Assembly (NCBI GenBank): GCA_903944165.1
Contig: CAJAQT010000049.1
Coordinates: 1-53,862 of the forward strand
DNA from: an uncultured Methylococcaceae bacterium
GTDB taxonomy: Bacteria > Pseudomonadota > Gammaproteobacteria > Methylococcales > Methylomonadaceae
Reading direction: 5' to 3'
Length of the DNA stretch: 53,862 nucleotides
Below the pieces are notes generated by a model. It worked only from the letters and a program-made list of their open reading frames with translations. It searched no databases and had not been told where the DNA came from. A program made the position numbers and the translations under genes. Position 1 is the stretch's first letter; each line of letters starts with the position of its first letter. Positions 2,907 to 7,856 of this stretch are shown here, one piece after another.

Positions 2907-3350
2907 ATGCGTATTTATTCTGCTTTCTTTTTGCTTGCTATCAGTGGTTTTACACCGCTTACGTGGGCGCATGATGTAATAGGATCATTAAAAACGTCAG
3001 CCAGTGCGACTGATTATTATAAAGTCACTTGTTATGATGATGGCTCTGGTGCTACTGAACGCCTTGAAGTAAAAATCAAAGATGCCGCCCCTGTAGCACC
3101 GCCTTTGGTTAGTGTGCTAGTTAGTAAACAAATGGGCAAAAATTTCATCGTTAAAAATACCACCGACGGCTCAGATGGTAATGCAACATATAGTCCTGTG
3201 ATTAGCATCACTGGTGGTAATGGTGATTATTTTTTAGGCGTAAATAAATCCTCACAACTAGCTGAAAATTATCAGTTACAACTCCATTGCTTAACGCGTG
3301 AGGGGCAACACACAGGAATACAAGAGCCATTACTTATTCAAAATCAATAA
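2907..3350 (+). CDS. small secreted protein, paralog 3 of 3
   Basis: NTTDGSDGNATYSP...VNKSSQLAENYQLQLHCLT aligned with neighbours. Confidence 0.7.
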   Translation: MRIYSAFFLLAISGFTPLTWAHDVIGSLKTSASATDYYKVTCYDDGSGATERLEVKIKDAAPVAPPLVSVLVSKQMGKNFIVKNTTDGSDGNATYSPVISITGGNGDYFLGVNKSSQLAENYQLQLHCLTREGQHTGIQEPLLIQNQ

Positions 3351-3437: not shown

Positions 3438-3941
3438 ATGAAAAATTTTATCTTCTCATGTTTTTTAAGCGCATTCGTTATCATTAGCTGTCAACAAACG
3501 GTCTGGGCTGACAAAAGCCCTCAGCCCATGCCTAATTGTGCGTTACTTTTAGCCAATCAATCCGCTAATATTCAGCTCAAAGAGCATCTTGGCAAAGTGC
3601 TGTATGTGGACTTTTGGGCATCGTGGTGTGGTCCGTGTGTTAAATCATTTGCTTTTTTAAATCAGCTTAATGATGAGTTTAAGCCTCAGGGTTTGGACAT
3701 TATTGGTGTCAATTTAGATGAAAATTTTTCTGAAGCCCAAGCTTTTTTAGATAAATACCCCGCTAACTTCACTATCGCAACCGATCAGACTCAACAATGT
3801 GCCACTGAATTCCATGTAAAAGCTATGCCCTCCTCATATTTAATTGATAAAAAAGGAAATATCAGGCATGTTCATCTTGGTTTTAGAGCGGATGAAGCTT
3901 CCAAAATTAACGCCTTGATTCGCCAATTACTTGCTGAATAA
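3438..3941 (+). CDS. TlpA/ResA-type thioredoxin-fold protein
   Basis: Signal peptide, 'LYVDFWASWCGPCVKSF' active site, 'AMPSSYLIDKKGNI'. Confidence 0.9.
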   Translation: MKNFIFSCFLSAFVIISCQQTVWADKSPQPMPNCALLLANQSANIQLKEHLGKVLYVDFWASWCGPCVKSFAFLNQLNDEFKPQGLDIIGVNLDENFSEAQAFLDKYPANFTIATDQTQQCATEFHVKAMPSSYLIDKKGNIRHVHLGFRADEASKINALIRQLLAE

Positions 3942-4083: not shown

Positions 4084-4338
4084 ATGCTCAACCATTCGCC
4101 ATTAATTATTGCTTTAAAAATAATCAAGAATTACACAGGTTATTTTTTATTCTCCTTAAGCGTTTTGTTATCAGGGTGTGCCTCTGTTTCACCTTGGCAA
4201 CGCGGCATTCTTGCCAAACCTGAAATGCAATTATCAACCCAGCCTGTGCAAGCATTATTTTATGAGCATGCCTATGGCAGTAGAGAAGCTGCCTCGGGTA
4301 GTAGTGCAGGCAGTGGAGGTGGTTGTGGCTGTTATTAA
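4084..4338 (+). CDS. DUF4266-type small lipoprotein
   Basis: Lipobox LLSGCAS; 'VSPWQRGILAKPEMQ'; 'HAYGSREAASG...GGGCGCY' C terminus. Confidence 0.85.
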   Translation: MLNHSPLIIALKIIKNYTGYFLFSLSVLLSGCASVSPWQRGILAKPEMQLSTQPVQALFYEHAYGSREAASGSSAGSGGGCGCY

Positions 4339-6910
4339 AAAAAAATCACCACACTCCGCTTTACATGCGCTCACCTTTGCCGCCTTAGCCTTGCCAGGCA
4401 TAATGGCTGCCCCCGTGTGTGCAGAAAATAACGACGTTGATTTTCAATATGGACATTATCAGGAAGGTAAACGAAATCTATTTTCAGTAAAAAACGATAA
4501 AAACCCTATCGAAGTTGAAAGTCTTTTTGGCAAAGCTACCTTTAGTTTAACTGACCGTGTTAACTTTACCGCGCATTACAGCCAAGATACGTGGTCAGGC
4601 GCTACGCCTATTAGTACCGCACCACTCGCAGCACAAAGTAATCGCGCCTATCTTGCTGATACCGCCTCGGGGCAGACCATAACAGCGGGGGCTTCACCCT
4701 ATTTAAATACCCAACTATTAGTGACGAAAAAATTTGTCCCCTTACAACAAAACGACGTTGGCAAGGTAGTGGGAAAAGAGCCACAAATAGTTCATATTAT
4801 GTCCATGGCCTCACCAGAAACGCGCAAGCAAGGAGATTTTAATTTAGGCTATGAGTGGGACGAATCGGCAATCACTGTTGGCGGTGGCTTGTCTTTAGAA
4901 AATGATTATGAGTCCAGATTTGGTAATGTCATAACACGCTGGGATTTTAATCAAAAACGCACGACCGTTAATCTTGGTCTGAGCTATACCAATAGCGACA
5001 CCTCAGCAATACTCGACCACGATGCTTCGCCGTATATTACAAAAGATTATTTTGCTGGACAGCTTATCCAAACGGGTGCATTAAAAATTATGCAGGGTAA
5101 TCGGCAAGACTGGAGCAGCACCGTAAGTCTTACTCAAATCATTAATAAATATGCGTTATTTGAAACCAGTGCAGGGTATACCCAAAGCACGGGGTATTTA
5201 GAAAATCCCTATAAAGTCATGACGATCATGTTTGTTGATCCCGAACAAACAACTCAACGCTTAACGGGCAATCTACACGCTTTTTTAGAACAACGTCCTG
5301 AGCAACGAAATCAATTTACATTGGGGGGGAAATTTATTCAGCACATTGGTTTTGCTGATGCAGCAATGCATTTGGAGTATCGATTTTTTCATGATGATTG
5401 GGGCATTGCAGCGCATACATTTGGTGCTGAGTGGGTTCAGCCCATCACGAGCAACTGGGTTATTACACCCAAGATTCGTTATTACTCACAAGATGCGGCA
5501 GACTTTTATCAAGCTTATGTATTGTCTAAACAGGCTTATAGCAAAACTCAGTATGACCCTGCCACCGGAAAATTTAACCTAATACCTTACGACCCAAGTC
5601 AATTACCTAACAATTTCTCCAGTGACCAGCGACTGTCCGCGTATGGCGCCATTAGCGGTGGCCTCAGTATCAGTAAACGCTTTTCAAAAGCCATTAGCCT
5701 TGAGGCGGGCGTTGAATATTATCAGCATGCAGGTTCTTTAAAAATAGGCGGAGGCGGTGAAGGTAATTACAGCGATTTTGATTCGTTTATGGCAAATGCA
5801 GCCTTAAAAGTAAATTTAGCCAACCTAGATAGTCGCGCATTTAATGTTCATTCCGAACATCAACATCATCACCAACATCAGGCACACAGCCATAACCATG
5901 CGCCAGCGGGGGTTATGTTCGATCATCTACTTACTGACGCCGGTAGCTGGATGATAGGGTATCGCTTTATGCATGATGAACAAGGTGGGGCTATGCTGCA
6001 CGGCACACACAGCACTACTGATCACACTATTGTAACAACTGGCTGTGGCACTGGTAGCGAGGGTTGTCGTTTAACACCAACGGTTATGGATATGAGTATG
6101 CACATGTTGGATATAATGTACGCTCCCCTGCCCGGACTTACTTTAATGCTGATGCCACAATTTATGGATATGGCGATGAATTTACGCAACTTAACTGGCG
6201 CGCCGCCTATTCCTGTTGGTGGTCATGTGCATTCAGGTACAGGGCATGCAACAGGCGGCATTGGCGATACGGGCATGTATGCCTTGATTAAAGCACTTGA
6301 TCTTACTCATCATCATGTGCATTTTGGACTTGGACTCAGTGCTCCCACTGGCGATGTCGATATTCAGTTAAGACGCGCTCATCAACAAGATGAAGGTTTT
6401 ATTCATTATGGTATGCAATTAGGCAGTGGTACATGGGATTTCAAACCCAGCCTTACCTATACGGGACAACACGAACAATGGTCTTGGGGCGCGCAATTTT
6501 CAAGTACCCAGCGTCTTGAAGATAAAGGCAGCACTGGCTATGCCTTAGGTGATGTATGGCAAACGACAGCGTGGGGTAGCTATCAACTTAGCCCTGGCTG
6601 GTCAGCCTCTATTCGTGGCGTGCATACTAATCAGCAGGCAATTACTGGACAATTTACTGACTTACAGGGCGTCGTTAATGGCGTTTTGTTAGACAATGTC
6701 AATCAACGCTCAGGCCCAATGGATTTTGCTAAAAATTATGGCGGACGCTTTTGGGATATTGGTTTTGGCGTTAATTACATGGTGTCAGAAGGTGATTTCT
6801 CAGGAAATTCAATGGGGGTTGAATGGTTACAACCGCTCAGTACTGACGTCAATGGCGTGCAACTTGATCGCCAAGGTGCGCTTTCTGCCACCTGGGGCTT
6901 AGCTTTTTAA
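4319..6910 (+). CDS. DUF3570 outer-membrane-type barrel fused to His/Met-rich transporter-like barrel
   Basis: GTG at 4319 (or 4325) is a more plausible start than 4178, overlapping the DUF4266 stop; 'DVDFQYGHYQEGKRN..VNFTAHYSQDTWSGATPIS' DUF3570-like; C-terminal 'HQHHHQHQAHSHNH..MDMSMHMLDIMYAPLPGLTLMLMPQFMDMAMN' barrel. Confidence 0.8.
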   Translation: MVVAVIKKKSPHSALHALTFAALALPGIMAAPVCAENNDVDFQYGHYQEGKRNLFSVKNDKNPIEVESLFGKATFSLTDRVNFTAHYSQDTWSGATPISTAPLAAQSNRAYLADTASGQTITAGASPYLNTQLLVTKKFVPLQQNDVGKVVGKEPQIVHIMSMASPETRKQGDFNLGYEWDESAITVGGGLSLENDYESRFGNVITRWDFNQKRTTVNLGLSYTNSDTSAILDHDASPYITKDYFAGQLIQTGALKIMQGNRQDWSSTVSLTQIINKYALFETSAGYTQSTGYLENPYKVMTIMFVDPEQTTQRLTGNLHAFLEQRPEQRNQFTLGGKFIQHIGFADAAMHLEYRFFHDDWGIAAHTFGAEWVQPITSNWVITPKIRYYSQDAADFYQAYVLSKQAYSKTQYDPATGKFNLIPYDPSQLPNNFSSDQRLSAYGAISGGLSISKRFSKAISLEAGVEYYQHAGSLKIGGGGEGNYSDFDSFMANAALKVNLANLDSRAFNVHSEHQHHHQHQAHSHNHAPAGVMFDHLLTDAGSWMIGYRFMHDEQGGAMLHGTHSTTDHTIVTTGCGTGSEGCRLTPTVMDMSMHMLDIMYAPLPGLTLMLMPQFMDMAMNLRNLTGAPPIPVGGHVHSGTGHATGGIGDTGMYALIKALDLTHHHVHFGLGLSAPTGDVDIQLRRAHQQDEGFIHYGMQLGSGTWDFKPSLTYTGQHEQWSWGAQFSSTQRLEDKGSTGYALGDVWQTTAWGSYQLSPGWSASIRGVHTNQQAITGQFTDLQGVVNGVLLDNVNQRSGPMDFAKNYGGRFWDIGFGVNYMVSEGDFSGNSMGVEWLQPLSTDVNGVQLDRQGALSATWGLAF

Positions 6911-6950: not shown

Positions 6951-7856
6951 ATGATTTATTTTCACGCACCTTTCACTGCAATGGGCACTCCTTGTGAACT
7001 GCAATTATTTGCCAAACATCATGCCCAAGCCAAACGTGTTGCGAAAACCGTAATCATTGATATCAAACGCTTAGAAAAAAGATATTCTCGTTACAAAACA
7101 GATAGCTTATTAGCAAAAATTAATCGAGTTGCGTGCATAGGCGGAAAGCTTTCTGTTGATGCCGAAACCGCAGGCCTATTAAATTATGCAGAAACTTGTT
7201 ATCAACAAAGCGACGGACTTTTTGATATTACCTCTGGGTTATTACGCACATTATGGCGAACTGATCAAACAACCTTGCCTGAAGCTCACCAACTTGCCGC
7301 ATTATTAACCCATATCGGTTGGGATAAAGTGCATTGGCAAAATCCTGTATTACGCTTTTTAGTGCCAGGAATGGAGCTTGATTTTGGCGGGATAGTAAAA
7401 GAATATGCGGTAGATAGAGCGGCTGAACTCTGTAAAAAAGCGGGGGTTACGCAAGGTGTTATTAACTTAGGTGGCGATATACGGGTAATTGGCCCTAGAG
7501 ACGATGGTCAGGCTTGGACTATTGGCATTCGACATCCACGATATCCTGAGCAACTATTGCACACCGTAGCAATGCATCAAGGCGCATTAGCAAGTAGTGG
7601 TGATTACGAACGCTGCTTGATGATTAATGGCAAGCGTTACGGTCATGTAATTAATCCAAAAACAGGCTGGCCCGTCAATTATTTAGCCTCTGTAAGTGTT
7701 ATGGCAGAGCTGTGTGTCGTGGCGGGCAGTGCTTCCACGATGGCCATGTTAAAAGAAGAGCAAGGCGTCGCTTGGTTAAACCATTTAGGCCTGCCCTATT
7801 CGTGGGTAGATGTACAAGGCAATGCCGGCGGCACCTTACTTGCTCAGTCGCCTTAA
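6951..7856 (+). CDS. apbE: FAD:protein FMN transferase (ApbE family)
   Basis: 'FTAMGTPCELQLFA', 'DFGGIVKEYAVDRAAE', 'GVINLGGDIRVIG', 'YGHVINPKTGWPV'. Confidence 0.92.
   Translation: MIYFHAPFTAMGTPCELQLFAKHHAQAKRVAKTVIIDIKRLEKRYSRYKTDSLLAKINRVACIGGKLSVDAETAGLLNYAETCYQQSDGLFDITSGLLRTLWRTDQTTLPEAHQLAALLTHIGWDKVHWQNPVLRFLVPGMELDFGGIVKEYAVDRAAELCKKAGVTQGVINLGGDIRVIGPRDDGQAWTIGIRHPRYPEQLLHTVAMHQGALASSGDYERCLMINGKRYGHVINPKTGWPVNYLASVSVMAELCVVAGSASTMAMLKEEQGVAWLNHLGLPYSWVDVQGNAGGTLLAQSP

Follow-up and report, generated by a model that had tools for sequence, protein, structure and literature searches.

The operon and its host genome

The window, a 53,862-nucleotide stretch of DNA from an uncultured Methylococcaceae bacterium analysed here as a whole, carries on its forward strand the gene order TlpA (3438-3941), DUF4266 (4084-4338), DUF3570 and ApbE (6951-7856), as given by open reading frames and Pfam matches. 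This confirms the initial annotation, which had placed apbE directly downstream of the DUF3570 gene (at 6951) and TlpA upstream of it. The features discussed below are as follows.

3438..3941, + strand: TlpA/ResA-like thioredoxin with WASWCGPC and an N-terminal signal (open reading frame; Redoxin, AhpC-TSA and Thioredoxin_8 matches)
4084..4338, + strand: DUF4266 small lipoprotein with an LLSGC lipobox and a C-terminal GGCGCY (CxC) (PF14086, E 9e-19)
4325..6910, + strand: DUF3570 fusion protein, likely start (open reading frame; GGAGG, then GTG at 4325; PF12094, E 5e-113)
4424..5839, + strand: DUF3570 domain, predicted 16-stranded outer-membrane barrel (AlphaFold2 pLDDT 89.6, pTM 0.87; Foldseek)
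4586..4606, + strand: flavinylation motif 1, DTWSGAT, with the putative FMN acceptor Thr at codon 4604-4606 (conservation; C. luteolum homologue)
4685..4696, + strand: degenerate flavinylation motif 2, AGAS (context TITAGASP), with the acceptor Ser at 4694-4696 (alignment)
5840..6907, + strand: His-rich linker and Met/His-rich C-terminal barrel (conserved residues in relatives; model)
6951..7856, + strand: ApbE flavin transferase lacking a signal peptide (PF02424, E 3e-75; N-termini compared)
7401..7403, + strand: Glu151 codon of ApbE, at position 170 of E. coli Ftp, Gly in canonical enzymes (alignment, 77/77 versus 0/31)
7725..7727, + strand: codon for ApbE Gly259, aligned with the metal-ligand Asp (E. 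coli Ftp D280) (alignment, 75/75 versus 0/31)

The reading frame around DTWSGAT is uninterrupted and ends at 6910, and its product covers positions 2-424 of the 427 in the PF12094 profile, a full-length match. Translation probably begins with the GTG codon at 4325, which lies five bases 3' of GGAGG; the reading frame thereby overlaps the DUF4266 gene at its 3' end. The signal peptide, judged by eye, comprises residues AVIKKKSPHSALHALTFAALALPGIMAAPVCA, with the mature protein encoded from 4424. The TlpA/ResA-like thioredoxin is possibly a lipoprotein, as suggested by the sequence IISCQQ. A DUF4266 gene was found in nearly all of the DUF3570 clusters examined.

The host genome (G000) measures 2.76 Mb, is 98% complete and encodes the B subunit of methane monooxygenase; the organism is a methanotroph of the Methylococcaceae. 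It holds two more DUF3570 copies (contigs C31/L006 and C156/L007), both short and with both SGAS motifs intact, each lying in a TlpA-DUF4266-DUF3570-DsbD operon without apbE. A search of the whole genome for DsbD domains located them on contigs C31, C156 and C225, two of them adjoining the short DUF3570 genes, and found none on the window contig, C49. The short copies are presumably modified in trans; if the leaderless ApbE of the window is the modifying enzyme, this single copy must serve all three DUF3570 proteins of the genome. No DUF3570 gene was found on plasmids. The initial annotation had passed over these two further copies, as well as the AGAS site, the 350-residue C-terminal barrel and the altered, signal-less ApbE. 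Elsewhere, one locus (L043) carries two long DUF3570 genes in tandem, with one DUF4266, one TlpA and one ApbE gene shared between them, and the same tandem arrangement of long genes occurs in Crenothrix polyspora RSM_CP1 (L166).

Flavinylation motifs and the predicted barrel

The initial annotation had read DTWSGAT at 4586-4606 as an ApbE flavinylation motif inside the DUF3570 protein, and the heptapeptide is indeed the exact translation of these positions on the + strand. The pattern D..[ST]GA[ST] arises by chance in 0.9% of shuffles of this protein. Across 65 aligned Methylococcales DUF3570 proteins, the Asp, the Gly and the acceptor Thr or Ser of motif 1 are each present in 65/65 and the Ala in 63/65, whereas the residue before the invariant Gly is Ser or Thr in 53/65, Gly in 10 and Ala in 2. 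Conservation in DUF3570 proteins, above all those next to apbE, had been named from the outset as a check on the flavinylation idea, and it holds in this alignment, including the copies beside apbE. The motif often begins with Glu (YETMSGASPWF) in more distant proteobacteria and Myxococcota, the remainder being unchanged.

The initial annotation had also allowed that flavinylation surveys might already cover DUF3570, and this is the case. In Meheust et al. 2021 (PMC8238504), DUF3570 is proposed as an ApbE substrate, with two conserved [S/T]GA[S/T] motifs across 228 DUF3570 proteins, and the C. luteolum DUF3570 protein expressed in E. coli acquired a UV-fluorescent flavin that was lost only when both acceptor serines were changed. 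The constructs used were truncated of their signal peptide, which places the native compartment outside the reach of that test. The paper also describes clusters of thioredoxin-like, DUF4266, DUF3570 and ApbE genes, 285 with DsbD and 316 further ones without, and suggests iron as the metal for some DUF3570 clusters; the parts read discuss neither a barrel fold nor where in the cell the DUF3570-linked ApbE works. The central idea that DUF3570 is flavinylated by ApbE was thus already published in 2021, and the motif alone adds little. What looks new beyond that publication is the signal-less ApbE with an altered site that tracks DUF3570, the predicted 16-strand barrel and the fused Met-rich barrel.

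Motif 2 sits about 20-30 residues past motif 1 in the same long loop and reads AGAS in the window protein and SGAS, TGAS, VGAS or AGAS among relatives. Compared with the two published [S/T]GA[S/T] motifs, the window protein keeps the acceptor Ser of motif 2 but has Ala rather than Ser or Thr as its first residue. Modification of this second site is probably weak or absent, because position 4 of the motif is Ala and no acidic residue stands at its start. On the other hand, a substitution study of the flavinylation motif found the Asp to be nearly dispensable and changes of the Gly or Ala only partly harmful (PMC12052999), so motif 2 may yet be modified. Eight long DUF3570 copies (L163, L056, L062-L064, L066, L075 and L044) carry GGAT rather than SGAT and lack an apbE alongside; an adjacent apbE was found for 0/8 GGAT copies versus 32/53 of the comparison set (Fisher, p 0.0015), though two GGGS copies do have apbE alongside. 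The GGAT copies may go without modification or depend on an ApbE acting in trans. Among the 46 open reading frames of at least 150 residues in the window, one other frame contains D..[ST]GA[ST], that of a small secreted protein (2907-3350); it was dropped as a second ApbE substrate, the SGAT motif occurring in only 3/75 relatives.

The model of the DUF3570 domain is a 16-stranded barrel whose best Foldseek matches are outer-membrane barrels, e.g. FadL, AlgE and PelB. Its long connections (60-131, 198-219, 258-293 and 357-406) all lie on one side, and the opposite side holds short turns and both chain ends. Outer-membrane barrels usually have their ends on the short-turn side and their long loops outside the cell. 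Because both ends lie on the short-turn side, the long loops, including the one that bears both flavinylation sites, are predicted by this rule to face outward, a topology that rests on strand parity. In the model, strand 3 carries motif 1 (mature residues 55-61) at its top, and motif 2 (mature residues 88-91) falls in the loop that follows, which is modelled poorly; the model is compatible with a flavin in the lumen or outside. A likeness to Mtr electron conduits is not claimed, Foldseek with the full model having returned generic barrels, among them MtrB (6r2q_B), at low TM-scores and no specific relative.

A signal-less ApbE subclass that accompanies DUF3570

An N-terminal export or lipoprotein signal is typical of ApbE, albeit not universal. 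The window ApbE, with the N-terminus MIYFHAPFTAMGTPCEL, starts directly at the ApbE domain, the onset of which lies about 8 residues past the start codon in an open frame only three codons longer, leaving no room for an export or lipoprotein signal. In the canonical ApbEs of the same group, 29-67 residues precede the domain, with a lipobox in those read. Signal-less ApbEs also stand beside DUF3570 in other Methylococcales, other Gammaproteobacteria, Myxococcota and deltaproteobacteria, a minority of DUF3570-linked enzymes having longer predicted N-termini that probably stem from mechanically chosen upstream starts. Since it has no export signal, the window ApbE is probably cytosolic.

The subclass also differs in its active site. 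All 75 of the readable DUF3570-linked ApbEs combine Glu at Gly170 with Gly at Asp280 (E. coli Ftp numbering), whereas the canonical ApbEs of the same group keep the Gly170 and Asp280 pair in 31/31. Metal 1 of E. coli Ftp is bound directly by Asp280 and by the carbonyl of residue 166, which lies four positions ahead of 170 (PMC4767422). The window ApbE has Gly259 at the metal-ligand Asp of the AD..[SD]T motif, and it retains neither of the two acidic residues, D280 and D283, that bind metal in E. coli Ftp (Gly259 and Ser262 instead), so its activity is not guaranteed. The catalytic Ser216 and His232 are retained in the window enzyme, and the Ser and His are kept across the subclass; according to a review of ApbE, the active-site Ser, His and Asp are the only conserved key residues (PMC12052999). 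Because the Ser and His are kept and every lost Asp is paired with a gained Glu near the metal site, we infer that the metal-site carboxylate has been relocated, subclass-wide, in a working enzyme. A tree built without the two diagnostic columns places all DUF3570-linked ApbEs together (support 0.89).

Across Methylococcales genomes, the leaderless ApbE, called from match length and frame, is present in 41/43 that carry DUF3570 and in 0/18 that do not (Fisher, p 1.4e-13), and a DNA signature of the subclass, D.GG[IV].KEYA, occurs in 13 of 299 independently sampled Pseudomonadota genomes, of which 11 are among the 20 with DUF3570 (p 3.5e-13), both statistics treating related genomes as independent. 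Nearly all of the signature matches in the 299-genome sample adjoin a DUF3570 gene. The canonical form, on the other hand, is present in Methylococcales with or without DUF3570. The claim that the window protein is an ApbE substrate, i.e. a covalent carrier, presumably of FMN, in a protein of outer-membrane type, agrees with the reported C. luteolum experiments, with the conservation of the motif and with this co-occurrence; the same lines support reading the locus as an envelope system in which the flavin would transfer electrons.

A cytosolic enzyme that acts on an exported barrel would be unusual, and a periplasmic lipoprotein ApbE could do the work instead. The only other ApbE of the host genome is a canonical lipoprotein, encoded far away on contig C13, with a lipoprotein signal and a complete metal site. 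This enzyme might flavinylate DUF3570 in the periplasm, while the leaderless ApbE has another substrate, cytosolic or unknown, or has lost its activity. Such a division of labour would fit with the presence of ApbE in all 61 relatives, with the absence of both acidic metal ligands from the window ApbE and with the fact that known non-cytosolic ApbE substrates are modified by exported ApbE (PMC12052999). We regard it as possible but rather doubtful, as the canonical form occurs regardless of DUF3570 whereas the leaderless form tracks DUF3570, usually as the next gene; moreover, the Gly-to-Glu change is paired with the loss of the Asp in 75/75, unlike decay, and the active-site Ser and His are retained. 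It is very improbable that the motif is just a structural turn of the barrel, the window protein being unflavinylated and the neighbouring apbE a coincidence of operon history: GGAT and GGGS forms in otherwise ordinary DUF3570 proteins, and a second site in the window protein that has lost its Ser/Thr and has no acidic residue, would suit such a turn, but the C. luteolum homologue is reported to be flavinylated at these motifs (PMC8238504), the acceptor is invariant and DxxSGA near-invariant in copies beside apbE, and the ApbE subclass co-occurs strongly with DUF3570 at the genome level.

The fused barrel, the proposed working and known systems

The C-terminal part of the window DUF3570 protein, about 350 residues, comprises a linker rich in His and then a second barrel, predicted to have some 12 strands, and it has no match in Pfam even at E 10. 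In 44 fused relatives, 12 Met, 5 His and 2 Cys are at least 90% conserved in this barrel, and the DUF3570 part of the same proteins has no conserved Met. The barrel is always fused in Methylococcaceae relatives with a complete gene, and more weakly related proteins that stand alone were found in 30-odd further proteobacterial genomes. Four such stand-alone loci (L244-L247; TMDMHMLGAMY...LMAMVPY) have varied neighbours, one adjoining, by eye, a DUF2946-like short protein and another an ACR3-type arsenite-efflux-like transporter. The sole fusion outside Methylococcales in the 299-genome sample, in genome G162, is accompanied by three copies of PF04744, a copper monooxygenase B subunit found in 3/299 of these genomes.

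Secreted proteins recur near long DUF3570 genes, with Ala-His at the presumed end of the signal peptide in 53/75. In the window, three tandem paralogues (1970-2419, 2443-2883 and 2907-3350) form a small secreted family with no Pfam family, and two of them have a predicted N-terminal His after cleavage (A|HDLSG and A|HDVIG). The product of 3-818, cut by the window edge and likewise without a Pfam family, clusters with secreted proteins of ~300 residues that start A|HTG near other long DUF3570 loci. The gene at 1098-1850, kept upstream of the operon in 25 loci, encodes a secreted protein with an N-terminal short domain that by eye resembles those of secretin/TonB proteins and with C-terminal HEAT repeats.

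We favour, with moderate confidence, the reading of the locus as an operon for outer-membrane flavinylation that belongs to the published DUF3570 type and works as set out here. The leaderless ApbE would move FMN from FAD to the motif-1 Thr (codon 4604-4606) of DUF3570, and would most likely do so in the cytosol, ahead of Sec export and BAM folding. Once folded, the N-terminal domain would form the 16-stranded barrel and hold the flavin in its long outward loop, where TlpA and the DUF4266 CxC lipoprotein would pass thiol electrons to or from it, fed in turn by DsbD proteins of the host, two of which sit with the other DUF3570 copies. The steps differ in strength. That the window protein is flavinylated at the motif-1 Thr by the neighbouring ApbE is quite probable. 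That flavinylation precedes export strikes us as an evenly balanced proposition, and the case for an exchange of electrons, at the outer membrane, between the flavin and the thiol pair of TlpA and DUF4266 could go either way. The genes, the motif with its conservation and the ApbE subclass with its coupling to DUF3570 are established here, and FMN attachment was demonstrated by others on a homologue, whereas we infer the modification site, the topology, the direction of electron flow and the final acceptor, no terminal electron acceptor being evident in the sequence analysed.

This preferred reading may be extended to metals: the fused protein would be a flavin-dependent metal, probably copper, reductase combined with a channel, the flavin barrel reducing Cu(II) at the surface and the Met/His barrel taking up or passing Cu(I) for the particulate methane monooxygenase. 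The Met, His and Cys conserved in the C-terminal barrel, set against the lack of conserved Met in the N-terminal domain, the Ala-His ends of the neighbouring secreted proteins, as in N-terminal-His copper proteins, and the PF04744 copies of G162 are consistent with a copper role. However, G162 counts as a single independent case, genomes without PF04744 widely carry stand-alone relatives of the barrel, Methylococcales relatives without DUF3570 exist, and PMC8238504 suggested iron as the metal of some DUF3570 clusters. Composition and one independent genome suggest a link of the fused barrel to copper, but we consider the full elaboration unlikely. Less likely still is that every part holds at once, with cytosolic flavinylation by a carboxylate-relocated ApbE, passage through Sec and BAM with FMN attached and a methanotroph fusion that serves as a surface copper reductase and importer.

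New at the window locus are two features of a known system: the Met-rich barrel fused to DUF3570 and the ApbE with its altered site and missing signal. Two questions become testable. One is whether flavinylation takes place before export, the ApbE being signal-less in gammaproteobacterial, myxococcal and deltaproteobacterial cases in which the presumed substrate is an exported barrel. The other is the role of the altered ApbE site, as the relocation of the carboxylate (75/75 versus 31/31) hits a residue that the literature counts among the few that are conserved. In addition, metal handling in methanotrophs gains a concrete candidate in the fused Met-rich barrel.

Among known systems, the closest is the C. 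luteolum pair of DUF3570 (ABB24424.1) and ApbE (ABB24423.1), which has the same Pfam domain, a cognate apbE in the cluster and [S/T]GA[S/T] motifs (PMC8238504); compared by description only, the window protein differs in that its first motif is canonical but its second degenerate, that a further barrel is fused to it and that its ApbE has no export signal. The locus shares its TlpA, DUF4266, DUF3570 and ApbE content with the DsbD/thioredoxin-like/DUF4266/DUF3570/ApbE clusters described there and represents this cluster type without a neighbouring DsbD, whereas the DsbD genes of the host accompany two short DUF3570 copies that lack an apbE of their own. The initial annotation had likened the protein to NqrC/RnfG. 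The flavinylation motif is indeed shared with these FMN-binding domain proteins, but membership in their family did not hold: a Pfam search of the window protein gave no match to FMN_bind (PF04205), DUF3570 being the sole domain found, and the fold and family are different. The window ApbE shares PF02424, the catalytic Ser and His and the FAD-site motifs with the canonical ApbE/Ftp enzymes of E. coli, V. cholerae, T. pallidum and T. maritima (1vrm), from which it departs by the missing signal peptide, the change of the AD..[SD]T Asp to Gly and the change of the KGY Gly to Glu. The cytosolic ApbE of Klebsiella pneumoniae, which acts on a soluble fumarate reductase, also lacks an export signal, but its substrate stays in the cytosol (PMC12052999), whereas the partner of the window ApbE carries a signal peptide and is predicted to fold as a barrel.
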